DNA of 24,953 bases from a virus. How positions within the stretch are numbered: the stretch's first letter is position 1; the number at the start of each line of letters is the position of its first letter. Below the pieces are notes generated by a model, which saw only the letters and a list, made by a program, of their open reading frames with translations, made no database searches and was not told where the DNA came from. Shown in pieces: positions 2,571 through 21,320 of this stretch. Where the stretch lies: positions 1 to 24,953 of the IMG/VR virus record IMGVR_UViG_3300005914_000087. One strand, 5' to 3'. A program made the translations under genes and the position numbers.

Positions 2571-3809
2571 ATGAGAATAGATAATCCAATTTCATCTAAT
2601 GCACAAATCACAGGCTCCTTCACAGGCTCCTTTAAGGGCGATGGAACCCTATTAACAGGTGTAACAGCAGAGTGGGATGGATCTCACAATGGAAACGGCT
2701 CAATCACAGGAAGTCTTAACGTTTCTAGCAACATTGTAGTTGGTGGAACAGTAGATGGAAGAGATTTAGCTACCGATGGTATAAAACTAGACGGTATTGA
2801 AGCATCTGCAACAGCAGACCAAACAGGAGCAGAAATTAAAACTGCTTATGAAGGAGAAACTGATACGAATGCTTTTGATGATGCAGCAGTAACTAAATTA
2901 GCAAATATTGAAGCCTCTGCAACAGCCGATCAATCAGCAGCAGAAATTTTATCTGCAATACTAACAGTAGATGGAGCAGGATCAGGATTAGATGCAGACT
3001 TATTAGACGGACAATCAGCAGCTTATTATAGTACAGCTACAGCTGTAGACTTAAAAGCAGACATAGCTTCTCCAACCTTTACAGGAGTAGTGACAATAAC
3101 CACAGCAGATTCTAATGATAATAGTACTAAAGCCGCTTCAACAGCCTTCGTACAAACAGAAATATCTGATTTAATAGGGGGTGCCGGAGCAGCATTTGAT
3201 ACCCTATTAGAAATATCAGCAAGTATTGCAAATGGTGATTCTGATGTAGTTGCTTTAACAGCAACGGTAAGCGGTAAATTACAGAAAGACCAAAACTTAT
3301 CAGACTTAACAGATGCAGGATCAGCAAGAACAAACTTAGGAATTGCTGGGGGGACAGTAGGGCATTTTCTTAAACATGACGGTACATTTGGATTACCTGC
3401 TTATACAGTAGACACAGATACAACATATACAGGAGGAACAGGTATTACATTGACCGGTACATCTTTTGCCATCGGCCAAGCAGTAGCCACTACTTCTGAT
3501 GTAACATTTAACACTGTAACTGCCACAGGAAACATAACAGCTTACTCTGATGCACGTCTTAAAACAGACGTTAAAACAATCGAAGGAGCTTTAGATAAAA
3601 CTAATAGCCTAAGAGGTGTGGAATATACACGTATAGCTGATAACAGTAAATCAATAGGTGTAATCGCCCAAGAATTAGAAGCAATTATACCGGAACTAGT
3701 ATTAACAGATTCAGAAGGAATGAAATCGGTTAATTATTCACAGCTTACAGGGTTATTAATAGAAGCAGTAAAAGAATTATCTGCTAAAGTAGATCAATTG
3801 ACAAAATAA
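2571..3809 (+). CDS. Tail fibre with C-terminal S74 intramolecular chaperone
   Basis: A 412-residue fibre protein. The N-terminus has GSFTGSFKGDGTLLTGV, then two GIEASATADQ-type repeats (near residues 75 and 110), a phage tail-fibre repeat SPTFTGVVTITTADSNDNST followed by KAASTAFV, and NLSDLTDAGSARTNLGI. The last ~90 residues are a peptidase S74 / endosialidase chaperone domain: SDARLK with the expected Ser326 and Lys331 five residues apart, then GVIAQELEAIIPELV and a final coiled coil (LIEAVKELSAKVDQL). In this family the domain drives trimer folding and then cuts itself off using the Ser-Lys pair. Both residues are present, so self-cleavage just before Ser326 is likely. The protein is probably the main receptor-contacting fibre or one of its subunits. 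Confidence 0.92.
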   Translation: MRIDNPISSNAQITGSFTGSFKGDGTLLTGVTAEWDGSHNGNGSITGSLNVSSNIVVGGTVDGRDLATDGIKLDGIEASATADQTGAEIKTAYEGETDTNAFDDAAVTKLANIEASATADQSAAEILSAILTVDGAGSGLDADLLDGQSAAYYSTATAVDLKADIASPTFTGVVTITTADSNDNSTKAASTAFVQTEISDLIGGAGAAFDTLLEISASIANGDSDVVALTATVSGKLQKDQNLSDLTDAGSARTNLGIAGGTVGHFLKHDGTFGLPAYTVDTDTTYTGGTGITLTGTSFAIGQAVATTSDVTFNTVTATGNITAYSDARLKTDVKTIEGALDKTNSLRGVEYTRIADNSKSIGVIAQELEAIIPELVLTDSEGMKSVNYSQLTGLLIEAVKELSAKVDQLTK

Positions 3810-4844: not shown

Positions 4845-5699
4845 TTGAATGTAATTTGGGTTTTAGAGAATATAGAAAAAAATAAAAACTTCTACAGTAG
4901 GTTTAATATACTGCTACTTATAACCTCAACTATCCTTTGGAAAAGAAATCATCCGGAGGATATTTGCATTTTATATGCAGATGATATGACTATAGATCTT
5001 CTAGATAGATTAAAAGTTTTAGAGATCTGGGATAAAATCAAAAACCTACCAAACCCTATAAACGTAAATAAGACTGTGTTTTGGGCATCCGCAAAACTTC
5101 AAGTACTAGCAGAGGTAGATACACCGGTTATTCTTATGGATAATGATACCCATGTGTACGCACCGATTAAAAAATATTTAGATACTAGTAACGTATACGT
5201 AACAAACTACGAAATAGGAAAAGGATATTACCCTACCTCTATAGATCCCTACGTACGAAAACTATCTTATAGACCAAGATGGAAAACAGAATCAGTTAAT
5301 GTATCCTTCTTACAATTACCAAACCCGGAATTTACAAGAAAATATGCTAACCAGAGCATCCAGATGATGGAGGAGTTCACTCTACATAAAGCACCTAATC
5401 CTCAGTACTTAATTTTTGCAGAACAATTATTTTTACGTCATTTATTAGTTAAGGAAGAAATAATGTATAGACCTTTAATTACTAACAGTTGGGACTGTAA
5501 AGGTCTAAAATGGAATGAAGACGATAATAAAGGTCTTTGGAAAGTAGAAGAATCTAGAAAGTACTTTAAACATTACGGACCAGAGAAGAAACATATACTT
5601 CAAAGCATTTATGGAGAGAATTACGAAAGAGAAATGAAACATTTGGTAAATTGCATAAATTTTCATAACTTGGATCTAGCGAGTATAAAAAACAGATAA
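4845..5699 (+). CDS. DxD glycosyltransferase-like protein; start uncertain
   Basis: The frame allows a TTG start at 4845, giving 284 residues (MNVIWVLENIEKN). An ATG in the usual position at 4835 is one base out of frame and reads only 16 codons. With one T fewer in the TTTT run at 4843-4846, the ATG would read MKGLNVIWVLENI, so a homopolymer indel is likely. The protein has an N-terminal sugar-nucleotide-type fold: ILYADD near residue 45, FWASAKLQVLAEVDTPVILM, and then Asp99-Asn-Asp101, a DxD metal site. EQLFLRHLL follows further on. This resembles GT-A-type glycosyltransferases acting on surface sugars. No membrane segment is seen. It is the first gene of the enzyme block, one base before the methyltransferase gene. 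The fold is moderately sure; the donor and acceptor are unknown. Confidence 0.65.
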   Translation: MNVIWVLENIEKNKNFYSRFNILLLITSTILWKRNHPEDICILYADDMTIDLLDRLKVLEIWDKIKNLPNPINVNKTVFWASAKLQVLAEVDTPVILMDNDTHVYAPIKKYLDTSNVYVTNYEIGKGYYPTSIDPYVRKLSYRPRWKTESVNVSFLQLPNPEFTRKYANQSIQMMEEFTLHKAPNPQYLIFAEQLFLRHLLVKEEIMYRPLITNSWDCKGLKWNEDDNKGLWKVEESRKYFKHYGPEKKHILQSIYGENYEREMKHLVNCINFHNLDLASIKNR

Positions 5700-5700
5700 A

Positions 5701-6462
5701 ATGTCTATAGTAAATAAAGAGTATGTACGTACTCATGTTACAAATAACAAGGTTATAACTACTACTCCCGACGGCAAAGAAGTACTTTCATATAGATCCG
5801 TTCCATTTAGATGGACCCATGGAGCTACTGAAGAATACCTAGGAGACGGCCTTCTCATATACACTATTATACAGTTAATGAAGTACAAAATAGTAGTGTG
5901 CTTGGGTTCAGGTGGGGGGTTTATACCCCGTATAATGACACAAGCCCGGTTGGACTTACACGATCAAAGTATATTTGAAGGAAATAAAGACTACAATTGG
6001 GGGGATATAGGGGCAACTTACCTTGTAGATGCAGCCAATGGAGTAGGAGGTACACCTGATTACTTAGAAGATGATTCTTACTTTAGATACCAGTTTAATC
6101 CAAGATTTATAAAAGATACAACAGAGAATGCGTATTACAACTTCTTTGTAAAACAGGATATTAAAATAGATTTTCTGCATATAGATGCTGGACATTCTTA
6201 CGAAGATGTTAAACAGGATTTTGAATTATACTCAAAACTCCTAGCTCCAAACGGAATGATATCTATTCACGATACAGATGAAAGATTTCAAAAAGAGCTT
6301 ATTATTACAGAAGATGAAAAAGAGTACTACGACCTATTCGAAGGTCCACCGCGTTTTATTAAAGAAATAGGACCAGAATGGAAACAATTCAACTTCTTCA
6401 ATACAGGTCAATTAGCAAATAAACCATCCTCAACAGGAATAACACTTTTACAACGTGCTTAA
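5701..6462 (+). CDS. Class I SAM-dependent methyltransferase
   Basis: A 253-residue protein. VVCLGSGGGFIPRIM (residues 65-79) is the glycine-rich SAM-binding motif I. IDFLHIDAGHSYEDVKQDF (residues 156-174) and LLAPNGMISIHDTD (180-193) are the strand 4 and 5 motifs of the Methyltransf_24 type, often found in O-methyltransferases of surface polysaccharide pathways. It follows the glycosyltransferase by one base and its end overlaps the next gene by eight bases, so it belongs to the same operon. Methylation of a sugar hydroxyl is the likeliest role given the neighbours, but a small-molecule or protein substrate cannot be excluded. Confidence 0.85.
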   Translation: MSIVNKEYVRTHVTNNKVITTTPDGKEVLSYRSVPFRWTHGATEEYLGDGLLIYTIIQLMKYKIVVCLGSGGGFIPRIMTQARLDLHDQSIFEGNKDYNWGDIGATYLVDAANGVGGTPDYLEDDSYFRYQFNPRFIKDTTENAYYNFFVKQDIKIDFLHIDAGHSYEDVKQDFELYSKLLAPNGMISIHDTDERFQKELIITEDEKEYYDLFEGPPRFIKEIGPEWKQFNFFNTGQLANKPSSTGITLLQRA

Positions 6463-7294
6463 TTTAGTTACAGTAGTTGGAGAAAATACACACATACTCC
6501 CTCATATGTTAAAACACTATGAAGACGTAGTGGATAAAGTATATGTAGTGGTATATAGACAGTCGGAAAGAGATGATATATTAGAAAAAGTAGAAGAACT
6601 AGGCATAACCCCCTATAAGGTTATAACCGAATCAAAGTATAATTGGAACAAAGTAACACAGTTGTATAATGAAACCAAAAAAACAAAACCCAATGATTGG
6701 TGGATAGTATCAGATGATGATGAACTACAGGTATACCCTCACCCAATTGAAGACATTATTAACAAGTGCGAAAGACATCAATATACCTTTGTCACAGGGG
6801 GGTTCTTAGATAGAATAGGTAGGGATGGTACTTTCCCAATAGTAACGAGAGACACTAACTTACACACATCTTTCCCTTTAGCAGGATTTTTTAGGTACCC
6901 GATGTCAGGGGCTTGCCCAAACAAGGTAACCTTAATGAAAGGACACCAGGATATAACATCCGGTCAACATTACGCACAATTTCCGGACGGTACAAATAGT
7001 TGGGGAAAGTCTCACCCAAAGAGAATGCCGATAGAAGAGTGTTTTACTCAAGTTCACCATTTTAAATGGGATTCAACTTGTATTAGTAGGATTAAAAAGG
7101 TTGCTAATACAAATATGAAGTATGCGTACTCAAAAGAGTATGAAACTATGTATAACGCAATTAAAATGTTTGATTTTAAAATAGATATAAATAATCCTGA
7201 GTTTTTAGTCGAGACTTTACTAGAAAGTTCTTATATTGAGTATATGGATTATTCTAAATGGAATACATTAATTAATAAAATAGTTACAATATGA
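6455..7294 (+). CDS. GT2-like glycosyltransferase
   Basis: A 279-residue protein starting at a GTG (GTGCTTAAT) that overlaps the methyltransferase end by eight bases. The N-terminus (LVTVVGENTHILPHMLKHYE) matches the opening of 'glycosyltransferase-like 2' domains, which act through polite inverting GT-A folds. WWIVSDDDELQVYP (residues 82-95) holds the acidic DxD-type metal/nucleotide-sugar site. A later HHFKWD (201-206) is the motif that typically closes the acceptor side of this family. There is no membrane helix, so it is probably soluble. Its end overlaps the next start by four bases (ATGA). The donor sugar is unknown. Confidence 0.78.
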   Translation: MLNLVTVVGENTHILPHMLKHYEDVVDKVYVVVYRQSERDDILEKVEELGITPYKVITESKYNWNKVTQLYNETKKTKPNDWWIVSDDDELQVYPHPIEDIINKCERHQYTFVTGGFLDRIGRDGTFPIVTRDTNLHTSFPLAGFFRYPMSGACPNKVTLMKGHQDITSGQHYAQFPDGTNSWGKSHPKRMPIEECFTQVHHFKWDSTCISRIKKVANTNMKYAYSKEYETMYNAIKMFDFKIDINNPEFLVETLLESSYIEYMDYSKWNTLINKIVTI

Positions 7295-7494
7295 GCAGCG
7301 AAAAATTAACAGAATACCAAAAACTGTCGCTAGAATTAAAAGAAAGACAGGTAAAAGCTAGTGAAAAGATAGCTACTAGTTTAGATGCACTTACTTTATG
7401 GTTTGAAGAAATAGATAAAGAAGACTGGGATAATAGATTACAATTCTACCTAAACGAATTTCACAAATTAGTACCAGAGGATGTAGATGCATAA
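7291..7494 (+). CDS. Small helical protein of unknown function (67 residues)
   Basis: Starts at an ATGA overlap with the upstream glycosyltransferase gene and ends eight bases into the next gene, so translation is tightly coupled on both sides. The protein is highly charged and helical (LTEYQKLSLELKERQVKASE), then has a Trp-rich helix (ALTLWFEEIDKEDWDNRLQF). It has no membrane segment. A coiled-coil partner or scaffold for one of the flanking glycosyltransferases is plausible from position only. I do not recognise the family. Confidence 0.7.
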   Translation: MSSEKLTEYQKLSLELKERQVKASEKIATSLDALTLWFEEIDKEDWDNRLQFYLNEFHKLVPEDVDA

Positions 7495-8935
7495 ACTGGG
7501 AATAATAGTCCCCTACAGAAATAGGCCCTTGCAATTAAGGGAGTTTACAAGAGAGCTCCCTATTTACCTTGAGCAGAATAATCCCGATGTTGATTACGAA
7601 CTAATCATTGTTAAACAACAAGATATTAAAAAGTTTAACAGAGGTAAATTACTAAACATAGGTTTTTTAGAAGCAGAAAAAAGAGGCTGTGATTATGTTA
7701 TATTCCACGATATAGATATGGTACCTGTAAAAGGAAGTTACCAATATAAGAATATACCACTTCAGCTTGCAAATACATTTGTTATTGAAAGAGACTTTAG
7801 GAGGACTATAACTAAAGACTACTTTGGGGGTGTGACATTATTTCCTGTAGAACAGTTTAAAAAAATTAACGGATACTCTAATAAATATAGAGGCTGGGGT
7901 TTTGAAGATAACGACCTTTTACTGAGAAGTAAGGAAATGAATCTCCCGTTAAGTAATAAAGAACTAAGGGTTCCACCGTTAAAAAAACCTATGTTAGAGT
8001 TTAACGGTAAAACATCGTTAGTAAAGGTCCCAAATAAATTCACCTTTGTAAGACCCATTTCATTTGTATGTACATTCACCCCTGGTCCGGTAAAATGTAA
8101 CCCCAACGAAATAACAGATGAATTTGCTGCGTTTGGGATACCGGGATATGACTTAAACTTGTCATTTAATTCATTTAAGACATATAAGTTTGAATTATTT
8201 CTTGTTAACGATGTAACTTACTCTATTACAACTGATCAACTTCCTAATATGCCGGTAAGGTGTGTTGTAACAATAGATCCAAGAACTAGAGAAATAGAGT
8301 TCTATGTCAACGGTAAACGAATTGGGAGCACAACTTGGGATAAGTACCAAATTAGAAAATATAATACCGAACCTTTCCTTTACTTAGGAGTAGCATCTCC
8401 AGAAAGAAAAGACAAACCTAAATTCTTTAACGGAGTCATAGATAGCTTTGCTGTTTTTAATAAAGTATTGAATAGAGAAGAGATAAAAGATATAAGTATT
8501 AATATAAAAGATGACTTACTCAATTCAAAAGAATTTGGATACACAGATGAACTGGTTACTTACTACGATACAAGGTATATAGAAGGTAACAACCTAAAGG
8601 ATCTTTCTGGTAACAATAACCACGGTAAGATAGTAGACTGTAAAGTGGTAAATATAGAAACACCACCTAGTGTTGTAGAAAGGTACCCACATAGACGTAA
8701 ATGTAAATACAGGTTACTTAAACATGAAGAAGGAGGATACAAAGACGGGTACTGGGTAGATTGGCAAAGTAGAAAAAACCAAATATACTACTATCAATTA
8801 GTAGAGAATAATTCTACTAATAGTGAAAACGATGGACTTAGTAACTGTTCGTATAAGTTATTAGAGGAACAAGAAATTAGGTACTACATTGGTAAAGTAT
8901 CCTACATTTATACCAAACTAAACGTAAGAACATAA
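7487..8935 (+). CDS. Family-7 galactosyltransferase fused to a LamG-like lectin domain
   Basis: A 482-residue protein with three parts. Residues 1-150 carry the beta-1,4-galactosyltransferase (GT7) signature in order: VPYRNR (8-13), FNRGKLLNIGF (50-60), FHDIDMVP with the metal-binding D75-I-D77, GGVTLFPVEQFKKINGYSN, and GWGFEDND (136-143), equivalent to the GWGGEDDD of animal enzymes. Residues ~165-335 look like a LamG/concanavalin-type beta sandwich (FNGKTSLVKVP, IPGYDLNLSFN, FYVNGKRIG, FNGVIDSFAVFNKVLNREEI), a fold that usually binds carbohydrate. The last ~85 residues (PHRRKCKYRLLKHEEGGYKD onwards) form a third module shared with the next protein. The likely role is sugar transfer to a glycan that the lectin part holds. 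Its end overlaps the paralogue by one base. Confidence 0.85.
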   Translation: MHKLGIIVPYRNRPLQLREFTRELPIYLEQNNPDVDYELIIVKQQDIKKFNRGKLLNIGFLEAEKRGCDYVIFHDIDMVPVKGSYQYKNIPLQLANTFVIERDFRRTITKDYFGGVTLFPVEQFKKINGYSNKYRGWGFEDNDLLLRSKEMNLPLSNKELRVPPLKKPMLEFNGKTSLVKVPNKFTFVRPISFVCTFTPGPVKCNPNEITDEFAAFGIPGYDLNLSFNSFKTYKFELFLVNDVTYSITTDQLPNMPVRCVVTIDPRTREIEFYVNGKRIGSTTWDKYQIRKYNTEPFLYLGVASPERKDKPKFFNGVIDSFAVFNKVLNREEIKDISINIKDDLLNSKEFGYTDELVTYYDTRYIEGNNLKDLSGNNNHGKIVDCKVVNIETPPSVVERYPHRRKCKYRLLKHEEGGYKDGYWVDWQSRKNQIYYYQLVENNSTNSENDGLSNCSYKLLEEQEIRYYIGKVSYIYTKLNVRT

Positions 8936-10347
8936 TGAAACATAAATTAGGGGTATGTGTACCGTATAGAAATAGAGAAGCACATCTACATGAATTTGTA
9001 CCGAAAGTAGGAAAGTACTTAAAAAATCAAGGTATAGATTTTCAAATGTACTTTTGTCATCAAGTAGACGATAAGTTATTTAATAGAGGGGCTACAAAGA
9101 ATATAGCAGCAAAACATGCTATTGAAGAAGGTTGCGATTATGTTGTGTTTCATGATATAGATATGATACCAGAAGAGGGTACAGACTACTCATATCCCAC
9201 AGAAGGACCTAGACACATAGCTACCAAAATATCTCAAATGGATTATGAACTTAAATACCACGAGTATTTCGGAGGAGCAGTTTTATTTACGAAAGAACAT
9301 TTACAAGCTACTAATGGGTATTCAAATAACTATTGGGATTGGGGTATGGAGGATGATGATCTCTTTTGGAGATGTCATGTAGAAGGGTTAACAAACGATA
9401 CATACCTTACTAAACTAGAAAACCAGAAATATATAAAGTTTAACGGAAAAAATTCTTACGGTAAAATCCCTTTTGAAAGAAAATTAAGGGATTTAACAGC
9501 TAAATCACATACAGTCTCAATACTGTGTAGATCTTATCAGCAACCAGAAAAGAACCCAATATTTTTAATAGGAGACAAGAAGACTAAATATATTGAATAC
9601 CCAATCTTCAGAATACCGGGATACGATTACGGGCTTTCTTTTAATAATTCGAAAGCTTTAACACTTACATACTGGAATACCTTTAATCAACATAATTATA
9701 TGTGGGTAAAGCGGTACGATAAACAGTGGAGCTGGGTGACAGCTGTGTTTAATTCAAACGAACAGTTAACTCATTTATATTTAAATGGAACTGAAGTGGA
9801 TTCAAAAGGAGGATATGGAAGCAGTTCTCCTTTAATCTATAAAGGAAAGTTAAAAAAATACGGGCCTAATGATATTTATATTGGAACATCCCCATCTCAA
9901 TCAGAAACCTCAACTAGTAAATATTATAAAGGAGATATAGCAAAAATATATGCTTGGACAGCCGCTCTGACCACTACCCAGTTGGAGAATATTCATAAGG
10001 AAATCCCACAGGAAGAATTGGTATTGGATATTGATTTTAATAATCCTAAAGATGAGATATTTTTAAATAATACAGAAGAACAGATAGAGACTTTTAACAT
10101 CCCTAACTCTATACTCCCTTTTAGAAAGGAAGGAAAATTTACTTGTCTACCCCATGAAGACGAAGGAATAGTAGGGGGAGTATTTAAAAAAGGAGAAACA
10201 ACCGCTGCAAATGAAAGAAGGTATGTACTCCAAATGCAACAAGGTAAAGTACAACACAAAGAAGACGGTATTTCGACTTTAAAATATACCGTAATAGGAG
10301 AAGATAAGTTAACACCTTGGGCAAAAATGCTTAATATAAAGTTATGA
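8935..10347 (+). CDS. Second GT7-LamG fusion, tandem paralogue
   Basis: A 470-residue protein with the same architecture as its upstream neighbour. The GT7 part has VPYRNR (9-14), FNRGATKNIA, FHDIDMIP with D74-I-D76, FGGAVLFTKEHLQATNGYSN and WDWGMEDDD (134-142). The LamG-like part spans ~165-345 (KYIKFNGKNSYGKIPF, IPGYDYGLSFNN, HLYLNGTEVDSKGGYGSS, GDIAKIYAWTAALTTTQLE). The C-terminal module begins PFRKEGKFTCLPHEDEG. All catalytic-type acidic residues are kept, so both copies look active. The sequences have diverged well beyond a recent duplication, which suggests different sugars or acceptors. It starts at a TAATG junction and ends at an ATGA overlap with the first radical SAM gene. Confidence 0.85.
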   Translation: MKHKLGVCVPYRNREAHLHEFVPKVGKYLKNQGIDFQMYFCHQVDDKLFNRGATKNIAAKHAIEEGCDYVVFHDIDMIPEEGTDYSYPTEGPRHIATKISQMDYELKYHEYFGGAVLFTKEHLQATNGYSNNYWDWGMEDDDLFWRCHVEGLTNDTYLTKLENQKYIKFNGKNSYGKIPFERKLRDLTAKSHTVSILCRSYQQPEKNPIFLIGDKKTKYIEYPIFRIPGYDYGLSFNNSKALTLTYWNTFNQHNYMWVKRYDKQWSWVTAVFNSNEQLTHLYLNGTEVDSKGGYGSSSPLIYKGKLKKYGPNDIYIGTSPSQSETSTSKYYKGDIAKIYAWTAALTTTQLENIHKEIPQEELVLDIDFNNPKDEIFLNNTEEQIETFNIPNSILPFRKEGKFTCLPHEDEGIVGGVFKKGETTAANERRYVLQMQQGKVQHKEDGISTLKYTVIGEDKLTPWAKMLNIKL

Positions 10348-11714
10348 TACATCAAGAGGTAAAGGATAAGTTAGATAAGGTAGGGTGTGGGTTCTGTTTA
10401 GCTAAATGGTCACAGGTTACTATTCACTTAGGTACAGGAATGACTCATTCATGTCATCACCCGTCCCCACATAAGATTCCGCTTGAAGAATTAAAACTTG
10501 ATCCAAGTGCTCTACATAATACTAGTTTTAAGAAAAAAAAGCGTAAAGAGATGTTGGACGGTAAAAGACCGTCCGAATGTGATTTCTGCTGGAATGTAGA
10601 AGATAATTCTGATTCTTTCTCCGATAGAGTCTTTAAATCAGCAGAACCTTGGTCTTGGCAAGATTACGATAAAATTAAAAGCAGCCACTGGAATGAGAAT
10701 ATTAACCCTAGGTACGTAGAAGTATCATTTGGGAATACATGCAACCTTAAATGTGCATACTGTGGCCCTCAATACTCCTCTAAATGGGTTGAAGAGATAG
10801 AACAGCACGGAGGATACCCAACCTCTCAAAACTTTAATAGTATAAAGGATATTAAAAAAAGAGGAGAAATGCCATATCTACATAAGGAATTTAATCCCTA
10901 CGTAGAAGCATTTTGGAAGTGGTGGCCAGACTTATATAAAGATCTACATACTTTTAGAATTACAGGCGGAGAACCCCTACTAACTAAAGATACCTTTAAG
11001 GTACTAGAGTACATACAGGAAAATTGGGAACAAAATCCTAACCTTTCTCTTGCTATTAACACTAACCTATCAGTACCTGATGCACTAATAGAAAAGTTTC
11101 TCCTAATTGCAAAAGATTTAACTGAAAACAATAAAGTAAGAGAGCTAATTATTTTTACTTCTGTCGAAGCTACCGGTTCTCAAGCCGAGTACACAAGGTT
11201 TGGTCTTGAGTACGATAAATTTTGGGATAATATAGAAAAACTTCTTACAAAACTTCCGAAACTAACAGTTACTATTATGGCTGCATTTAATGCTCTATCA
11301 GTATTTACCTACGGGGAGTTAATAGATAAGGTATTTGAGTTTAAACAAAGGTTTCATAATAAAGACAGGTACTGGGGTGATGCACTTCAACTTGATACTT
11401 CTTACCTGAGATGGCCGACCCACTTATCAATTAAAATTCTAGAACCTGAACATAAACAGTTAATATATGATGCAGCTGTTAAAGCATTTTATTACGGTAA
11501 AAACCCACCTCCTAATGATACCGCTGGATATTCTGATATTCAGATACAAAAAATAAAAAGAACATATGACTATGCCATTGGAGAAAGTAACTTTGATGTA
11601 GAGAAAAACAGAAAAGACTTTGCTTCATTTATTACGGAATACGATAAAAGAAGAGGAACTAATTTTATAGAAACCTACCCTGAACTAAAAGAACTGTATG
11701 TTAAGTATAAATAA
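10344..11714 (+). CDS. Radical SAM protein, CHH-type N-terminal variant (copy A1)
   Basis: A 456-residue protein. CNLKCAYC places the radical SAM [4Fe-4S] ligands at Cys133, Cys137 and Cys140, and ITGGEP (206-211) is the SAM-binding motif. The N-terminus carries further probable metal ligands: Cys15, Cys18, Cys37 in SCHHP, and Cys79/Cys82 in ECDFCW, arranged like the auxiliary cluster of twitch-type radical SAM proteins but at the N-terminus. NPYVEAFWKWW (184-194) is shared exactly with the protein at 12273. The reaction is a radical one on an unknown substrate; sugars or peptides are both possible. It overlaps the upstream GT7 gene by four bases and the downstream gene by 17. Confidence 0.88.
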   Translation: MIHQEVKDKLDKVGCGFCLAKWSQVTIHLGTGMTHSCHHPSPHKIPLEELKLDPSALHNTSFKKKKRKEMLDGKRPSECDFCWNVEDNSDSFSDRVFKSAEPWSWQDYDKIKSSHWNENINPRYVEVSFGNTCNLKCAYCGPQYSSKWVEEIEQHGGYPTSQNFNSIKDIKKRGEMPYLHKEFNPYVEAFWKWWPDLYKDLHTFRITGGEPLLTKDTFKVLEYIQENWEQNPNLSLAINTNLSVPDALIEKFLLIAKDLTENNKVRELIIFTSVEATGSQAEYTRFGLEYDKFWDNIEKLLTKLPKLTVTIMAAFNALSVFTYGELIDKVFEFKQRFHNKDRYWGDALQLDTSYLRWPTHLSIKILEPEHKQLIYDAAVKAFYYGKNPPPNDTAGYSDIQIQKIKRTYDYAIGESNFDVEKNRKDFASFITEYDKRRGTNFIETYPELKELYVKYK

Positions 11715-12273
11715 TAAAGAACCATGGGCATTTTGGCCAACAAGAATCTGTAATGGCTTTTCTCCATTAGCAGGAAACCAGCTAATTAGCGGTAGATACA
11801 ACTTCGAATTTTCCTTAGATTTTACCATTAGAAAAACCTACGGATTGAAAAGTACAATCTTTTCCATACTCCCTATTTACACTTGTCTCAATTACTATAA
11901 TGAACATATGAGTAATATAGATGTACATACTAAAAAGGGTAGAGATTGGAGAGAAATAAAGGATACTATATTTATAAATAAAAAACATAATGTTACTGTT
12001 AAAAACCTAGCTAACAGTACATTTACAGTATGTATAGATAACGAAGTAGTTATAGAAACTCAACAATTTAGCCATGTTACAGATCCTCAAATGATATTTG
12101 GAGCTACTAACCTTCCGTGGCATCATGATAACCATAACTACTGTGATATAGATCTACATGAATTTAAGATGTTTCATGATGATACCTTAATTGCATATAA
12201 TAGATTTAATAAGTATTTTTACGATAAGTCTTTTGACATATCCAATAACTGTAATTTTATACACAAAATATAA
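11698..12273 (+). CDS. Possible stand-alone LamG-like domain protein
   Basis: A 191-residue protein whose ATG lies 17 bases inside the preceding radical SAM gene and whose stop shares a base with the next start (TAATG). The pattern is strand-rich: YNFEFSLDFTIRKTYGLKST, then HNVTVKNLANSTFTVCIDNE with a strand-turn-strand like the 'YVNGK' hairpin of LamG domains, and ending CDIDLHEFKMFHDDTLIAYN, like the closing strands of the fold. This parallels the lectin halves of the GT7 fusions. There is no signal peptide. The likely role is a glycan-binding partner for the flanking radical SAM enzymes. The fold call is tentative because no single diagnostic motif exists. Confidence 0.55.
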   Translation: MLSINNKEPWAFWPTRICNGFSPLAGNQLISGRYNFEFSLDFTIRKTYGLKSTIFSILPIYTCLNYYNEHMSNIDVHTKKGRDWREIKDTIFINKKHNVTVKNLANSTFTVCIDNEVVIETQQFSHVTDPQMIFGATNLPWHHDNHNYCDIDLHEFKMFHDDTLIAYNRFNKYFYDKSFDISNNCNFIHKI

Positions 12274-13898
12274 TGGGAATATTCGCAAAAAAAGAAAACG
12301 AAACATTTCAAGAATACAGAGATAGAGCTGTAGACAGCCTCTCTCCTTCTTTCTGCGGTGCTAAATGGTATAACGCTACAATATGGCTAGGTAATGGTCA
12401 AACAGCATCCTGTCACCACCCTCCTGCACATAAAATACCTTTAGAAGAATTAAAGTTTAGTTACAAAGCACTTCACAATACTAAATATAAGAAAGCAGTT
12501 CGTAAGCAGATGATAGAAGGTATAAGACCTAAAGAATGTGAATACTGCTGGAAAATAGAAGATTTAGGGAAAGATAAAGTCTCTGATAGAGTTTATAAAT
12601 CTGTTATATATACAGATGAAGAGCTCAAAGATGCAAAAGAAGTAATGGGCTATGCAGAGGACGTCGACCTCAAAACATTAGAGATAGCATTTGATGCTAA
12701 TTGTAACTTTGCTTGTTCGTACTGCAATGCTTCCTTCAGTACTACATGGCAAAAAGATATTAAACAAAACGGCCCTTACCAGAATCTTGTATCAGACGGT
12801 GCAAAAGCATTCCAACATGACGGTTCCCATGCCATGCCTTACGGTAGAAAAAATAAAGATAATCCTTACGTAGAAGCATTTTGGAAATGGTGGGAAGCAG
12901 AACTTCAATACAGCTTAAGAGAACTAAGGGTAACAGGAGGAGAACCTTCGATGTCACCAGATTTCTGGAAACTTATGGAATGGTGGAAAGAACACCCAGA
13001 ATGTAAAGTCCCTTTCGCCGTAAATTCAAATCTAGGTCAAAAGAAACAGCTACTGGACGCTTTAATAGAATCAACACATAGTTTTAAAGACTTTAGTATA
13101 TACACCTCTAATGAAGCAGTAGGTCTCCAATCTGAATATATAAGGTACGGTTTGGAATGGGATGTTTGGTTAAAAAATATGTACAGGGTAAATGAAGAAG
13201 GAAATTTAAAAGCAGTTAACGTAATGATGACTATTAATGCGTTGTGTCTATTTTCTATCACAGAGTTTATGGATGAAATGCTAAAGCTTAAAGCAAAATT
13301 CGGCGACCAGGCTGCAGTAATGTCGTTCAATATACTACGTTTCCCCTCCTTTCAATCGATAGTTACACTGCCCGAACACATTAGACTAGAAAGAGCAGCC
13401 CATATAGAAAAATGGTTAGAGGAAAAATGGAACGGTGGAAAAAATGGTTTCATGCAACATGAAAAAGATGGTCTACTTAGATTAATAGAGTACATTAAAA
13501 CAGTACAAACCGGCCATGAGTTTACTTCTTCCTTAGAATCAAGAGAAAGAGACTGGAAGTCTTTCTATAGACAGTACGACAAAAGGAGAAATAAAGATTT
13601 TAAGACAGCATTTCCTATGTTAGGAGAATGGTATGATAGTATACCAGAAACCAACTTAACACCATTAGTGAATGCTGTAGACGGGGATGATGCTAAATCT
13701 AATAAATATGTAGAGGGCGTCCTGAAACAAGCTAAAGATGAAGGATGGGTTTTAAACGCTCAATGGGCTAATCCAGGATCAGAATCCTATATTGAACCTG
13801 ATGATGAACAGCAAGATTCTATGATAGACTTAATAGAGCAGTTAAATAAAGATAAACAAACAAACCCTGTAAAAAAATCAGATAACACTCTAACTTAA
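12273..13898 (+). CDS. Radical SAM protein, CHH-type with C-terminal extension (copy A2)
   Basis: A 541-residue paralogue of the protein at 10344. CNFACSYC gives cluster ligands Cys144, Cys148 and Cys151, and VTGGEP (220-225) is the SAM motif. The N-terminal metal-type residues are Cys28, Cys47 (SCHHP), and Cys89/Cys92 (ECEYCW). HKIPLEELK, ALHNT and NPYVEAFWKWW are shared with copy A1. The last ~90 residues (after FPMLGEWYDS) form an extra acidic tail, including VLKQAKDEGWVLNAQWANPG and a run of Asp/Glu/Gln, that copy A1 lacks. It might hold a partner protein or substrate. It begins at a TAATG junction and is followed after two bases by the next radical SAM gene. Confidence 0.87.
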   Translation: MGIFAKKENETFQEYRDRAVDSLSPSFCGAKWYNATIWLGNGQTASCHHPPAHKIPLEELKFSYKALHNTKYKKAVRKQMIEGIRPKECEYCWKIEDLGKDKVSDRVYKSVIYTDEELKDAKEVMGYAEDVDLKTLEIAFDANCNFACSYCNASFSTTWQKDIKQNGPYQNLVSDGAKAFQHDGSHAMPYGRKNKDNPYVEAFWKWWEAELQYSLRELRVTGGEPSMSPDFWKLMEWWKEHPECKVPFAVNSNLGQKKQLLDALIESTHSFKDFSIYTSNEAVGLQSEYIRYGLEWDVWLKNMYRVNEEGNLKAVNVMMTINALCLFSITEFMDEMLKLKAKFGDQAAVMSFNILRFPSFQSIVTLPEHIRLERAAHIEKWLEEKWNGGKNGFMQHEKDGLLRLIEYIKTVQTGHEFTSSLESRERDWKSFYRQYDKRRNKDFKTAFPMLGEWYDSIPETNLTPLVNAVDGDDAKSNKYVEGVLKQAKDEGWVLNAQWANPGSESYIEPDDEQQDSMIDLIEQLNKDKQTNPVKKSDNTLT

Positions 13899-13900
13899 TA

Positions 13901-15208
13901 ATGGAATTAGATCCACGTAACATATCAAAAGAAAAGACTTTCTGTTCTGCTCCTTGGATGCACCTTCACGTGATAAACGATGGAAGAGCTTTTCCTTGCT
14001 GTATGACTGAAATTAGTGATGATCATGTAGTAGGAAATGTAAAGGACAATTCTCTCTTAGATATTCTCAATAGTCCAAAAATGAATGCTATGAGAAAAGG
14101 TATGTTAGAATCTAAAAGTTTACCTAAATCTTGTGAGAGATGCACAGGCAGAGAAGAATCAGGTTTTAGTTCTATGAGACATGGAATGAATGATCAATGG
14201 TATTCAAAAATTGATGATTTAGTTAAGAAAACAAATGTCGATGGGTCTATAGATGAAGTAAGACTACTTTACTGGGATATTAGATTTTCTAACTACTGTA
14301 ATTTAGCTTGTAGAACCTGCCACCCTATATTTTCAACCTCATGGGCTAACGACTATATTAGATTAAGATCTCATGATGATAACGTAGAATTAGGACTCCA
14401 AAATTTAGACAACGAAACAAATTTTTGGAAAGAATTAGACGAAAACCTATCATTAGCACAGGAAATACATTTTGCAGGAGGGGAACCTATACTTATGCCA
14501 GAGCATTGGAAAATTATAGAATTTTTAGAAAAAACTAATAGGTTTGATGTAAAGTTAAAATACTCTACAAATGCTACTAAACTAATAGTAAAGGGAGTAA
14601 ACATATTAGACGTATGGGAAAAATTTAATAACGTACATTTAAGTTTATCAATAGATGGAACAGGAGATCATTTTGAACTAACTAGACATAAGGGCAATTG
14701 GGAAAAAACAAAACAAAACCTTATAGAAATAAGTAAAAGCAACCTTAGGTACTGGGTACATCCAACAGTAAGTATCTTGAATATTTTACATATAACGGAT
14801 CTACACAGAGAACTATTCGATTTAAATCTTATTCCAAATACAATTAGAGATTGCGAACAAGAAGTAGACTCTACTACAGGTAAAGTACATGGATTTGATG
14901 AGCAAGATTACTTTACTATAAGATTTCACATAAACCCATGCATACACCCAGACATCTATTCAGTTCATAATATACCGGAAGATATAAAAGAAATTGCTTG
15001 TAAAAAGATAATGCAATATGCTAAAGAATATAAAACCAGATACAACATACCTACAACCGGCTGGGAGTCTTTAGTGGATTTAATGAATAGTCAAAAGTGT
15101 AATATGAAAGTTTTTAATAAGTTTGTGGAGACAACTAAGAAACTGGATAAAATTAGAAATCAAGACTTTTGTAAAATCCAACCAGAATTTAAAAAGTATT
15201 TTAATTAG
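13901..15208 (+). CDS. Radical SAM protein, CC-type twitch family (copy B1)
   Basis: A 435-residue protein. CNLACRTC places the radical SAM ligands at Cys133, Cys137 and Cys140; AGGEP follows at 192-196. The N-terminus has the twitch-type pattern FCSAPWMHLHV (Cys15), FPCC (Cys33-Cys34) and CERC (Cys78, Cys81), which probably holds an auxiliary Fe-S cluster. The middle has SLSIDGTGDHFELTRHKGNW, a segment typical of this family's barrel. No C-terminal SPASM domain is present. It starts two bases after the previous stop (TAATAATGG), with no Shine-Dalgarno sequence. The substrate is unknown. Confidence 0.88.
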   Translation: MELDPRNISKEKTFCSAPWMHLHVINDGRAFPCCMTEISDDHVVGNVKDNSLLDILNSPKMNAMRKGMLESKSLPKSCERCTGREESGFSSMRHGMNDQWYSKIDDLVKKTNVDGSIDEVRLLYWDIRFSNYCNLACRTCHPIFSTSWANDYIRLRSHDDNVELGLQNLDNETNFWKELDENLSLAQEIHFAGGEPILMPEHWKIIEFLEKTNRFDVKLKYSTNATKLIVKGVNILDVWEKFNNVHLSLSIDGTGDHFELTRHKGNWEKTKQNLIEISKSNLRYWVHPTVSILNILHITDLHRELFDLNLIPNTIRDCEQEVDSTTGKVHGFDEQDYFTIRFHINPCIHPDIYSVHNIPEDIKEIACKKIMQYAKEYKTRYNIPTTGWESLVDLMNSQKCNMKVFNKFVETTKKLDKIRNQDFCKIQPEFKKYFN

Positions 15209-16231: not shown

Positions 16232-17575
16232 ATGAAAATTAAACCTGAAGACGGTAATAAAACTTTCTGCATGGTTCCTTGGTCCCACACCTACCTTTCA
16301 CCTCAAAGTGAAAGAAGACTATGCTGTGCTTCTAGAGAAAAAGCTAACTGGGCAACTCAATACATTGATAATGAATCTGCAGATGAAAAAGCAACATATA
16401 ACCCAGGAACTTTAAAAGACCATTGGAACTCAGAGTATATGAAAAATATACGCAAGAATTTAATGGAAGGAAAACAAATTCCTCAATGTACAGTATGTAA
16501 TGATAAGCTATTAAATATATCGGTATATAGGGACTATTTTAATAAGAGTTTATTCCCAAATAAGATAGAAGAGGCTTTTGATAAAACAACAGAAGACGGT
16601 CACACTGAAATGTTACCTATATCGTTTGACTACAGAGTTAGAAACCTATGTAATTTCAAATGTAGAATGTGCGGCGATCAGTTATCCTCTTCCTGGGAAG
16701 CAGAGAAAAGGCAAATGGGAGATTACGATACCGAAGGTCATACAGATTTCTGGGCATTAAAAGAAAATAAACCGGCAATAGAGAATTTTCAAAAGAACGT
16801 AGCAGAAGAGGAGCTATGGGAAGCTGTTAAAAGTGGTAGAATTGAAGAAATATACTGGGTAGGTGGAGAACCGCTTATGTGGGAAGTCCATTGGCAAGTA
16901 ATGGAATATTTAATTGAGAATGACTTAGCAAAAAATGTATGGATTCGCTACAATACTAATTTTTCTAGAACTACATATAAACATTGGGACTTAAGAGAGA
17001 TATTACCTCATTTTAAAAAAGTTCAGATATGTGCATCAATTGATGGAGTAGGAGAAAATGTAGAATATGTTAGACATGGAATTAAATGGGATAGTTGGAT
17101 TAAAAACTTTAAAGACTTTTTATTTTTAAATGAAAAGTATGGAGAATACGGAATAGCTTTTGACCTAACAATTACTACACCGGGTTTATTCTGTCTTAAA
17201 GAAATGCTAGATTTAGCATTAGAACTAAACGTTCAAACACTTATTAAAACTACATTTGCATTCGATAGCTCTATAACTATGTGTCCACAAGTGCTGCCTC
17301 GTAAACTATATGATGAGGTGCTTGATGATTTACTTGACTATATTACACCAAAAGTAGAGAATACTAAATACTCCAACTGGATTGACTGTTTAACAGATTT
17401 AAAATCAAGACAGGTCTTTTCTGAGATATACCCAGACTGGAAAGAAGGGCTTACCAAAGGTAAAAAAAACTTACAGAGAGTAGATAAGTGGAGAAAAAAT
17501 GAAGGAGACATAGAAAAAATATACGCCAAACACCCAGGCGTTTTAGAGTGGTGGAACTCAATAGAGATTATATAA
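16232..17575 (+). CDS. Radical SAM protein, CC-type twitch family (copy B2)
   Basis: A 447-residue protein. CNFKCRMC gives ligands Cys140, Cys144 and Cys147, and YWVGGEPLMWEVHW holds the GGEP motif. The N-terminal cysteines are Cys13 (FCMVPWSHTYLSP), Cys31-Cys32 (LCCAS) and Cys86/Cys89 (CTVC). CASIDGVGENVEYVRHGIKW in the barrel matches the equivalent in copy B1. It begins 19 bases after the micro-ORF and ends at a TAATG junction with copy B3. As with the other copies, the reaction cannot be read from sequence, but five such genes in one operon make a shared pathway likely. Confidence 0.88.
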   Translation: MKIKPEDGNKTFCMVPWSHTYLSPQSERRLCCASREKANWATQYIDNESADEKATYNPGTLKDHWNSEYMKNIRKNLMEGKQIPQCTVCNDKLLNISVYRDYFNKSLFPNKIEEAFDKTTEDGHTEMLPISFDYRVRNLCNFKCRMCGDQLSSSWEAEKRQMGDYDTEGHTDFWALKENKPAIENFQKNVAEEELWEAVKSGRIEEIYWVGGEPLMWEVHWQVMEYLIENDLAKNVWIRYNTNFSRTTYKHWDLREILPHFKKVQICASIDGVGENVEYVRHGIKWDSWIKNFKDFLFLNEKYGEYGIAFDLTITTPGLFCLKEMLDLALELNVQTLIKTTFAFDSSITMCPQVLPRKLYDEVLDDLLDYITPKVENTKYSNWIDCLTDLKSRQVFSEIYPDWKEGLTKGKKNLQRVDKWRKNEGDIEKIYAKHPGVLEWWNSIEII

Positions 17576-18798
17576 TGGTACCAGGAGAAGGATATAAAAA
17601 AAGAGCATTTTGTGTACTACCCTTTATACATCTAGCTACTCACCCAATAGGTACTGTAACCCCATGTTGTGTTACGGATATGAAAGATGGAGTATCAACT
17701 GCCGCTGTTGAACAACATGATGATGTACATTTATTCCTTTCAAAGGATAGCTTAGATGATATAGCTAATTCTAAAAAGTTTAAAGAAGTAAGGAAGCAAA
17801 TGATTAATAATGAATTTCCATCTGTTTGTAAATCCTGTTATAAGTATGACGACAACAACGTACATTCTAAACGAATGGAATCTAATCTTAAATTCTCGCA
17901 TTTGATTAATGAATGCTTTAAGAATGTTAATCCTGATGGTTCTTTAAAGAGAGTTAACTACAAATATGTAGAATTAAGACTGGGTACTGTATGTAACCTT
18001 AAGTGTACTACCTGTAATCCATTTTCATCTAATAGGTGGCATCAAGATATAGGAGCATTTAAAGGTACAGAATTTGAAAAAGATTACTTCAAGAACGAAA
18101 TCAAAACTGAATGGTTTAGGGATACAAATTTTTATGATGAGCTGTATAGCAAGTGTGATGGATTAGAAGAAGTATGGATTAATGGAGGTGAACCAACCTT
18201 AATAAAGGAGCACGGTTACTTTTTAAAAAAGTTTATTAATGACGGTACAAGTAAAAGTATTAATTTACACTACAGCTTAAATTGTACCCAGTTCCCTGAT
18301 TACTTTATTGAACTATGGAAACATTTCGGTAAAGTAAGGATACATCTCTCAATTGACGACTTAGGAGAAAGAAACCACTACGTTAGATACCCTTCAGATT
18401 GGACTGTTATAATGAAAGCACTGGATAAAATATTAAAGTATAGAGATATTTTTGATTTAGAAATGTGCCAGACTGTGAGTGCACTAAATGTGTATAACCT
18501 AAATAACTTTAGAAAGTTTACTAAAGACCATGGACTTATAATAGCATATAATTATGTACAATACCCAGATCATTTACATGTTAGTCTAATTCCTGAAGAA
18601 ATGAAAACAGGAATTGTTAATAATATAGATGAATTAGTACCTTACGAAGCCGAAAAATTAAAATTAGAATTATTTAGAGAAACTAGACAAAAAGACATAG
18701 ATAGGTTTTATTCTTTTATAAATATAATGGATAAGCAGAGAAACGTAAAGATAGGAGATTACTTACCAGAATGGAATGAATATTTCTTAGACAAATAA
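17575..18798 (+). CDS. Radical SAM protein, CC-type twitch family (copy B3)
   Basis: The ATG at 17575 overlaps the previous stop (TAATG), as at other junctions here, and gives 407 residues; a GTG at 17548 would add nine residues and is less likely. CNLKCTTC gives ligands Cys140, Cys144 and Cys147, and WINGGEPTLIKEHG holds GGEP. The N-terminal cysteines are Cys13 (FCVLPFIHLA), Cys31-Cys32 (TPCCVTD) and Cys85/Cys88 (CKSC). HLSIDDLGERNHYVRYPSDW is the barrel segment. The spacing of all cysteines equals that in copy B2, so the two are close in architecture. Confidence 0.88.
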   Translation: MVPGEGYKKRAFCVLPFIHLATHPIGTVTPCCVTDMKDGVSTAAVEQHDDVHLFLSKDSLDDIANSKKFKEVRKQMINNEFPSVCKSCYKYDDNNVHSKRMESNLKFSHLINECFKNVNPDGSLKRVNYKYVELRLGTVCNLKCTTCNPFSSNRWHQDIGAFKGTEFEKDYFKNEIKTEWFRDTNFYDELYSKCDGLEEVWINGGEPTLIKEHGYFLKKFINDGTSKSINLHYSLNCTQFPDYFIELWKHFGKVRIHLSIDDLGERNHYVRYPSDWTVIMKALDKILKYRDIFDLEMCQTVSALNVYNLNNFRKFTKDHGLIIAYNYVQYPDHLHVSLIPEEMKTGIVNNIDELVPYEAEKLKLELFRETRQKDIDRFYSFINIMDKQRNVKIGDYLPEWNEYFLDK

Positions 18799-19005: not shown

Positions 19006-20304
19006 ATGTCGTACAGTAATTATTTATTAGAGAGTTACAGCGGAAAAATCTTTTACGGTGTAGATTCTTATAATAATAACTTTATTTATCAGGATCCAAT
19101 AGGATCAATTGTTTATAATCTGCTTTATTTTATTGAACATAACATAAAGTTTATTTACCCAATCCTATGTCTTGATCCATCGCTTTTCCTGAAAGATCCC
19201 CCCAACCTAAACAGTAAAGTAGTAGAAGCATGTAATAACGGACTATGTAGAGTAGTTATAATGTTTAATACTGAAGGGTATCAAGCAGGTACTACATTTT
19301 TTGAATGGTTAGAAACATTTGCTATAAAAAATAAATTAAATTTTACTAACTTTTTTTTAGCACACGGTAATAGAAAACTAGCGAAGTCTTACCTGCATTA
19401 CTTAAGCAGTGAAAGAGATCCAAGAGTAAGTATATTAAAATACTCTTACTTTCAAGATTTCCCTTGGTTTATATATAACGGCGATAGTAACTCCCCACAA
19501 GGAAAGGACACCCTTAAACACTTTAGTAAAGTTCTGACTAACAATAGAGAAGTAAGAAAAGTAAAACACTTTCTATGTTTAAACAGAGTACCTAGAACAA
19601 GTAGAATGCTGATGTTTGCAATAATAGCATCAAACGAGGACTTAAATAGTAAGACTATACTTTCTATAGGATCTGGTGAAAACTGTCCCAATAGTAAAAC
19701 CAAGTACTTGAAGCGACACCCAGAAATAGAACAAGACTTACCCAGCTGGTTGCTCCTATCATATGAAAATGAAGAAATACCGCTCCGTTTACAGAATTTT
19801 ATTAATTCATACAACTGGGAAGAACGTAAACATGTTCTCGATAACTCGAAAGATACGAACAAAGCAAACGATGTAAATTTAGATTTTCACAAATCTACCT
19901 TTTTAAATATAGTCACAGAAACACTTACAGAAAATAATACTATATTTTTCTCAGAAAAGATATTCAAACCGATATATATGCTTCAGCCTTTTATACTTCT
20001 AAGTAGTAAGAACTCACTAAAGGAACTAAAAACACTTGGGTATAAGACTTTTGACAGATGGTGGGATGAAAGCTATGATGAGGAAGATAAATTAGTAGAT
20101 AGAGTATTAAAAATAGAAAAAGTATTAAAGAGACTGAGTAAATTAACTCCTGATGAACTCTATACAATGACTACTGCTATGGAAGATACTTTGGTACATA
20201 ATTATAGTGTATTTTTATTAGAACCAAAACAAGAATCTTTAGATTATTTCAATTTGTTAAGCTTTAATCAGAATATTTATAATTATAAAAATGAGTTACT
20301 ATGA
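19006..20304 (+). CDS. Glycosyltransferase-like protein with NR-P and SEK-FKP motifs
   Basis: A 432-residue protein. Two conserved blocks stand out: KHFLCLNRVPRTSRMLMFAI (187-206) and NIVTETLTENNTIFFSEKIF (301-320), continuing as KPIYMLQPFILLSS. The 'E-T...F-S/T-E-K-x-F-K-P-I...P-F' block resembles the C-terminal nucleotide-sugar-binding region of fucosyltransferase-like (GT10-type) enzymes, where a similar T-E-K is found. The N-terminal 180 residues are unrecognised. The gene ends with an ATGA overlap with the 30-base remnant at 20301. A glycosyltransferase role fits the operon, but I infer it from one motif region. Confidence 0.6.
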   Translation: MSYSNYLLESYSGKIFYGVDSYNNNFIYQDPIGSIVYNLLYFIEHNIKFIYPILCLDPSLFLKDPPNLNSKVVEACNNGLCRVVIMFNTEGYQAGTTFFEWLETFAIKNKLNFTNFFLAHGNRKLAKSYLHYLSSERDPRVSILKYSYFQDFPWFIYNGDSNSPQGKDTLKHFSKVLTNNREVRKVKHFLCLNRVPRTSRMLMFAIIASNEDLNSKTILSIGSGENCPNSKTKYLKRHPEIEQDLPSWLLLSYENEEIPLRLQNFINSYNWEERKHVLDNSKDTNKANDVNLDFHKSTFLNIVTETLTENNTIFFSEKIFKPIYMLQPFILLSSKNSLKELKTLGYKTFDRWWDESYDEEDKLVDRVLKIEKVLKRLSKLTPDELYTMTTAMEDTLVHNYSVFLLEPKQESLDYFNLLSFNQNIYNYKNELL

Positions 20305-20360: not shown

Positions 20361-21320
20361 ATGATTTATACAAAGAGTACACAGACACTTTATGCTCACG
20401 TATGGGCATGGTACACAGTTGATGAATTGATTTCCTTTATGGAGAATCATAAACCTATTAGATTCATTTTAGACTGTTCGTCAGAATACGAACCACCAGG
20501 AAGTTTTAACAATAAAAAAGAGCTAGTTAAATTAAATCAATACATTAAGACCAATAGTATAGAATCTTACATAATACTAGGTAGCTGTAATATACATACA
20601 TACCCAGCTCATAAAAAACCTTTAGACATATTACCGGATTTTAATTTTTTAACTTACCCCTTAACTTTTTGCGGTATAGTTTACAATACGCTACCTTACA
20701 CAAATGAGTATAATAAGCCGACGCATTTATTTTATGCTCTAATTAATAGGCCCCATACACATAGATGTATATTAGTAGATGAAATAGTAAATAAACGTTT
20801 GAGTGAATATGGTAAATTTACTTGGAATAAATTAACTGAAGGTAAGTACAATTTTAAGCACTGGCATGAAAAAATAATAATACAGAAGGGAGAATGGCTT
20901 GAAGATGACGCTTATAGTAAACCGGAATTGCAATACTTTACTTCTGTTTTTGATCTAGTGGTAGAAACTACGATTGAAACAGCTTTTTTTACTGAAAAAA
21001 CTTTCAAACCAATTTTATTAGGAAAGCCTTTTCTTATATTTGGAGCTCCTAAAATTAGTACATCCTTAGCTGAACTAGGATTTCAACTGTACGATGAAGT
21101 TATTGATTATAGTTTTGACCAGATAGAGGGGACAGAAGAGAGAGCTAAGGCTTTATGTCTAGAGCTCAAAAGAATTGCATTGAGGTATTCATTAGAAGAA
21201 ATATTATTAATTTTAAAAAATAAAGTAGAGTTTAATAGAAAATTAGCAATAACACTCGCCCAAGACCCCTCTCATACAGCTATAACTATGGTTAATAATT
21301 ACGTAAAGGGTTTTTATTAA
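20361..21320 (+). CDS. Glycosyltransferase-like protein, apparently inserted gene
   Basis: A 319-residue protein. It shares two blocks with the protein at 19006: FYALINRPHTHRCILVDEI (124-142) and VVETTIETAFFTEKTFKPIL (200-219), followed by GKPFLIFGAP. The N-terminal ~120 residues differ. The paired blocks suggest the same GT10-like C-terminal fold. It lies between the two copies of the 30-base repeat, so it appears to be a later arrival. Unlike most genes in this block it does not overlap its neighbours: 18 bases separate it from the remnant and 59 AT-rich bases follow it. Confidence 0.6.
   Translation: MIYTKSTQTLYAHVWAWYTVDELISFMENHKPIRFILDCSSEYEPPGSFNNKKELVKLNQYIKTNSIESYIILGSCNIHTYPAHKKPLDILPDFNFLTYPLTFCGIVYNTLPYTNEYNKPTHLFYALINRPHTHRCILVDEIVNKRLSEYGKFTWNKLTEGKYNFKHWHEKIIIQKGEWLEDDAYSKPELQYFTSVFDLVVETTIETAFFTEKTFKPILLGKPFLIFGAPKISTSLAELGFQLYDEVIDYSFDQIEGTEERAKALCLELKRIALRYSLEEILLILKNKVEFNRKLAITLAQDPSHTAITMVNNYVKGFY

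Follow-up and report, generated by a model that had tools for sequence, protein, structure and literature searches.

The GT7a-GT7b gene pair and its surroundings

The window analysed here is the whole record IMGVR_UViG_3300005914_000087, 24,953 bases in length, and is a genome fragment from a phage with a contractile tail. Its tail-fibre genes (S74 chaperone domain, 2571-3809) are followed by a run of sugar-related and radical SAM genes, the tail sheath gene (22923-24644) and the tail tube gene. The run contains two neighbouring genes, GT7a and GT7b, whose coordinates and domains are collected in Table 1. Both reading frames are uninterrupted, and the GT7a stop and the GT7b start overlap in the sequence TAATG. 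The Pfam matches in the two proteins, all of which exceed the curated cut-offs, are Glyco_transf_7N (1.5e-17 in GT7a and 2.5e-18 in GT7b), Glyco_transf_7C (2.5e-16 and 3e-19) and Laminin_G_3 (3e-10 and 8e-10), with one GT7 site in each protein. A 67-aa ORF at 7291-7494 lies between the GT2 gene and GT7a and overlaps both; a gap of about 200 bases is found there in the relatives, too.

Table 1. Positions of the gene pair, its domains and the adjacent genes in the window
Feature	Position	Strand	Description	Basis or remark
DUF6734 family protein	4845..5699	+	probable glycosyltransferase	conserved block
Methyltransf_24 family methyltransferase	5701..6462	+		conserved block
GT2-like glycosyltransferase	6455..7294	+	Glyco_tranf_2_4	conserved block
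GT7a	7487..8935	+	482 aa; GT7-family glycosyltransferase, LamG domain internal	ORF, Pfam, model, 98 relatives
GT7a N-terminal catalytic half	7487..7948	+	residues 1-154	YRNR; FNRG; DID (D75/D77); YFGG (Y112); WGFED (W137/E140/D141)
GT7a LamG/pentraxin-like insert	7949..8686	+	residues 155-400	
GT7a C-terminal catalytic half	8687..8932	+	residues 401-482	
GT7a H413 (codon)	8723-8725		equivalent to B4GalT1 His343	Leu410 at the Met340 position (site 8714-8725)
GT7b	8935..10347	+	470 aa; GT7a paralog, identical domain layout	
GT7b N-terminal catalytic half	8935..9393	+	residues 1-153	D74/D76, Y111, W136, E139, D140
GT7b LamG insert	9394..10116	+	residues 154-394	
GT7b C-terminal catalytic half	10117..10344	+	residues 395-470	
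GT7b H407 (codon)	10153-10155		equivalent to His343	Cys404 (codon 10144-10146) at the Met340 position
Radical SAM 1, twitch-domain	10344..11714	+	NF033640; overlaps the GT7b end	directly 3′ of GT7b in most related loci
191-aa protein	11698..12273	+		same position holds a stand-alone LamG protein in some relatives
Radical SAM 2, twitch-domain	12273..13898	+		often in the block

The same gene order recurs among the related loci: DUF6734, methyltransferase, GT2, GT7a, GT7b and radical SAM 1, often followed by a small protein and radical SAM 2. The carriers of this block are large myoviruses, in which the block is located between the tail-fibre and tail-sheath genes. The nearest isolate by the tail sheath is Flavobacterium phage immuto (Immutovirus), with 64-70% identity in the sheath and 82% in the tube; about 2 kb separates its last tail-fibre gene from the sheath, and the stretch compared yielded no block homolog. 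Because of this resemblance in sheath and tube, a host among the Flavobacteria is a fair guess.

Stand-alone homologs of the LamG part were found right after radical SAM 1 in five loci (L064:10766-11476, L066:10766-11479, L071:10819-11547, L110:12346-13113 and L129:12503-13237), and these proteins match the LamG insert at 97.8% (hhalign). The 191-aa protein of the window was considered as a further LamG protein, and this assignment is unsupported (0.5% in the profile comparison).

Location of the LamG domain and conservation of the catalytic residues

In the initial annotation, each protein was regarded as an end-to-end fusion of a GT7 catalytic module, a LamG-like lectin and a shared third module. 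The intact GT7 signature described there is borne out by the Pfam matches and by the conserved catalytic residues, and the LamG-like middle part is likewise confirmed. The arrangement is different. The Glyco_transf_7C match of either protein breaks off before the end of the profile, at position 61 or 67 of 78, where the LamG part starts. In a search of solved structures, residues from about 2 to 155 gave a strong match to beta-1,4-galactosyltransferases 1 and 7, and the C-terminal piece gave a second, weak match to the C-terminus of the B4GalT enzymes.

The compact bacterial homologs clarify what the C-terminal piece is. One of them (L075, the same gene as L168) aligns to B4GalT1 and human B4GalT7 as one stretch, the C-terminus included, and in the compact bacterial GT7s L167-L171 the end of the front profile and the start of the C-terminal profile are 2-5 residues apart. 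When compared with the rear halves of these compact proteins by hhalign, the C-terminal piece of GT7a matched at 97.0% (E 9e-11) and that of GT7b at 96.0% (E 5e-9). From this compact layout and these matches, we conclude firmly, at the level of sequence comparison, that a LamG domain of about 240 aa interrupts the GT7 catalytic domain and that the presumed third module is the rear half of the same domain. It is true that Pfam assigns nothing to the C-terminal piece and that the HMMER match there is a weak, second one, as three separate modules fused head to tail would lead one to expect; nevertheless, its match to the compact rear halves and the near-invariant lid histidine that it bears make such a fusion extremely improbable, and we rejected it. 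The conserved segment noted earlier is thus real, but it is not a module of its own.

According to residue counts on the alignments, the insertion point corresponds to the interval between about residue 328 (about Ser327-Ser329) and about residue 331 (about Pro331) of human B4GalT1. In the same numbering, the insert lies between the helix on the C-terminal side of the Trp loop (309-318) and the strand leading into the lid (338-365). In B4GalT1, the sites for Mn and for the acceptor are formed when the lid closes (PMC6198961), and by alignment the insert maps next to the lid and the Trp loop as they are described there.

If the C-terminal piece is the rear half of the catalytic domain, the metal-binding histidine of the lid (His343 in the human and 347 in the bovine enzyme) is expected within it. 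This residue was found in 97 of 98 GT7a and in 98 of 98 GT7b sequences. The equivalents of bovine Asp252, Asp254, Tyr289, Trp314, Glu317 and Asp318 are present in every one of the 98 GT7a and 98 GT7b sequences, so that the DxD metal motif, the WGxED of the Trp loop and the catalytic Asp are all retained. Since a tyrosine occupies the donor-selecting position, the donor may be UDP-Gal, and this suggests galactose as the transferred sugar. The two paralogs differ at the position of human Met340, the weaker metal ligand of B4GalT1: all 98 GT7b sequences have Cys there, and the GT7a sequences have Leu, Val, Ser or other residues. Because GT7a lacks an equivalent of this ligand, its metal use may differ from that of GT7b. 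With this difference at a single metal ligand, the pair lends itself to direct tests of donor and metal use.

The AlphaFold2 models, for which alignments of related proteins were used as input, were predicted with confidence, with a pLDDT of 86.9 and a pTM of 0.83 for GT7a, and 89.4 and 0.82 for GT7b. In Foldseek searches with these models, the front half was recognised as a GT-A fold (B4GalT7 and B4GalT1 at E of about 1e-13), and the middle part retrieved pentraxins, PAPP-A, LamG-type sandwiches and a Bacteroides putative carbohydrate-binding protein. Thus, for both GT7a and GT7b, a LamG (concanavalin A-like lectin) fold is indicated by the profile match and by a predicted jelly-roll sandwich. 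A middle part lacking a jelly roll, which would have spoken against the initial annotation, was not observed. Among the relatives, the mean identity of the LamG part is 34% in GT7a as compared with 60% and 45% in the front and rear catalytic halves, and 46% in GT7b as compared with 75% and 66%. This faster divergence could be what is expected of a part that determines specificity, or it could reflect relaxed constraint.

The animal beta-1,4-galactosyltransferases of CAZy family GT7 (B4GalT1 and B4GalT7) are 28-37% identical to the front half in the Foldseek alignments, and share with the phage proteins the fold, the DxD, the Trp loop, Tyr285/289, Asp314/318 and the lid histidine. Unlike the phage proteins, the solved animal enzymes carry no inserted domain; the phage proteins in turn have no membrane anchor, and Met340 is replaced by Cys in GT7b and by Leu, Val and others in GT7a. 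The closest uninterrupted relatives found are the compact bacterial GT7s (L075/L168, L167, L169, L170 and L171), which are proteins of 233-274 aa in alphaproteobacterial genomes; they have both catalytic halves, including the RDGxFxxLxH motif, but no LamG domain. The earlier remark that GT7 is best known from animals is fair, although such compact bacterial genes exist. These relatives provide a matched control for the LamG insert.

Distribution and origin of the insert-bearing proteins

The order of GT7, LamG and C-terminal piece is common to 194 distinct related proteins, which excludes a sequence error or chimera that joined separate genes, a possibility raised initially. GT7 genes were found in 141 loci (94 distinct). 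In 90 of the 94 distinct loci there are two or three copies, which without exception share one strand and mostly overlap or abut. In one locus (L061:5465-6878), GT7b is divided into two overlapping frames, one with the front half and LamG and the other with the rear half, owing to a frameshift or an assembly error. Additional GT7 paralogs, which are divergent and have inserts of about the same size, form a clade of their own (L127:6239-7717, L134:6210-7664 and L018:7992-9581), and a 679-aa protein of another virus (L154:3720-5759) carries a GT7 front half at residues 433-591.

The GT7b proteins form a supported clade separate from GT7a (100/99), and the LamG parts of GT7a and GT7b are homologous (hhalign, 99.8%, E 2e-27). 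By these comparisons, GT7a and GT7b are ancient paralogs of common origin, and the homology of their LamG parts favours a single insertion before the gene duplication. A single clade of the insert-bearing proteins was not rejected (p-AU 0.30), but a long viral row (L155) inside the insert group blurs it, so that a single origin of the insert falls short of proof.

Three contigs of metagenome-assembled genomes (MAGs) labelled Flavobacteriales and Pelagibacterales (L072, L073 and L074) bear a phage-type block; these are probably phage sequences binned with bacteria. The searches covered 296 genomes of the phylum to which L072 belongs and 289 of the L074 class; apart from the two MAGs from which these loci came, no genome had a recognised GT7 with an insert. 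For the L074 class, the search used the Pfam model, and the strong matches elsewhere in this class were ORFs of about 240-330 aa. The LamG insert in GT7 would therefore appear to be mainly a virus trait. In 50,697 deposited phage records, tblastn with GT7a, GT7b, radical SAM 1 and the GT2 gene gave no match, nor did the compact GT7 in isolated phages; the tail sheath, used as a positive control, matched. The literature search on GT7 in phages found no paper on point. Since many uncultivated myoviruses carry the block (the pair occurs in about ninety genomes), which is yet unmatched in the deposited records, an abundant phage glycan pathway may be overlooked.

Possible roles of the LamG domain and targets of the block

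The most likely explanation is that GT7a and GT7b are both active UDP-galactose transferases in which LamG aids the choice or positioning of the acceptor. That each gene encodes one GT7 galactosyltransferase, with a GT-A domain split by a LamG insert having this role, is moderately favoured. The front half would supply the donor site, the DxD, the Trp loop and the catalytic Asp, and the rear half would supply the lid with its metal-binding histidine; together they may move galactose from UDP-Gal. The location of the insert at the hinge of the lid makes tethering of the acceptor plausible: LamG might bind an acceptor glycan or glycoprotein, or it might sense the acceptor and bias lid closure, a role that can be likened to that of alpha-lactalbumin or of the lectin domains tuning other transferases. 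The two enzymes probably act sequentially on one glycan, late in infection and together with the neighbouring glycosyltransferases and the methyltransferase. No galactosyltransferase lid has been studied better than this one, and a lectin-like insert at its hinge offers a natural experiment on acceptor choice in GT-A enzymes.

LamG folds frequently bind proteins or have a purely structural role. The insert may be an assembly surface and not a lectin, joining GT7a to GT7b or to other block proteins and replacing the homodimer face of the animal enzymes. Many tandem glycosyltransferases function without such a domain, and LamG is the quickest-evolving part of these proteins. The overlap of the two genes and their adjacency in 90 of 94 loci speak for this alternative, as does the fact that the dimer face of human B4GalT1 includes Val322, Phe323 and Arg330, which adjoin the insertion point (PMC6198961). 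On balance, we consider it unlikely. The processive enzyme proposed initially finds no support in the sequences: processive glycosyltransferases usually rely on a second active site or on a channel through the membrane, and GT7a and GT7b have a single GT7 site each and no membrane-spanning segment that could be found. DNA glucosyltransferase activity was also considered and set aside, as no gene for modified-base synthesis was recognised among the annotated genes of the window; the T4 DNA glucosyltransferases have another fold.

Accessory domains are known in other transferases. The human beta1,4 transferase B4GALNT3 requires its PA14 domain for activity; this accessory beta-sheet domain, which is of a carbohydrate-binding type, likewise adjoins the catalytic domain (PMC11254600). 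B4GALNT3 is a eukaryotic Golgi protein, however, and the domain is PA14, not LamG. Lectin domains tune acceptor choice or turnover in the polypeptide GalNAc-transferases (PMC4432651) and in GnT-IVa (PMC9296478). These lectins have other folds and are attached via a linker or at the C-terminus, whereas the phage LamG lies inside the catalytic domain.

What the block decorates is left free by the explanation favoured above, and the likelihoods given here are not mutually exclusive. One candidate is a host surface glycan, altered so as to hinder superinfection or later adsorption. The host recognition cluster of pelagimyophages, a large variable island among the structural genes of T4-like marine phages, resembles the present block in its position and in its company of glycosyltransferases and radical SAM cassettes, and a change of the host surface was proposed for it (PMC7029224). 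It differs in that GT8 is reported as its main family, and the searched text of that paper mentions neither galactosyl nor laminin. The window also has a nucleotide-sugar dehydrogenase gene. Against this target, the gene position suggests late expression, and no flippase, lipid-carrier transferase or clear membrane protein is found in the window, which is a fragment. Systems for phage O-antigen conversion (gtr) comprise a membrane flippase and a lipid-linked sugar transferase beside a specific glycosyltransferase. Simple hydropathy scanning of the window genes revealed no clear membrane-spanning protein, one methyltransferase segment being borderline, and hence no gtr-like set in this fragment. 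A host-surface target seems quite possible, if short of an even chance.

Another candidate is the virion itself, that is, the tail fibres or a small Ser/Thr-rich protein; LamG would then recognise a protein of the virion or the first sugars on it. Virion genes flank the block on the same strand, the tail-fibre genes directly 5′ of it and the sheath gene 3′, and a 150-aa protein encoded 5′ of the block beside the tail fibres has 32% Ser+Thr and recurs in the relatives. The absence of a clear membrane-spanning protein from the block fits such a target, but lipopolysaccharide cores are likewise built by cytoplasmic glycosyltransferases, and Ser/Thr-rich fibres without glycosylation are common; we regard a virion target as a tentative possibility. 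That the two GT7s of this widespread and so far unrecognised glycan-building block of large aquatic myoviruses are lectin-gated galactosyltransferases acting on the phage's own tail fibres is a more doubtful proposal. If it is true, the virion would be glycosylated by enzymes that read the acceptor with a domain of their own.

Two features were seen among the other genes of the window. One is that all five radical SAM genes (10344-11714, 12273-13898, 13901-15208, 16232-17575 and 17548-18798) belong to the twitch-domain radical SAM family NF033640 of NCBIfam, and three of them have a SPASM match N-terminal of the radical SAM domain. Another is that the proteins encoded at 19006-20304 and 20361-21320, which have no Pfam match, have in common an F(F/T)(S/T)EK(I/T)FKPI-like motif, reminiscent of GT10-type C-termini.
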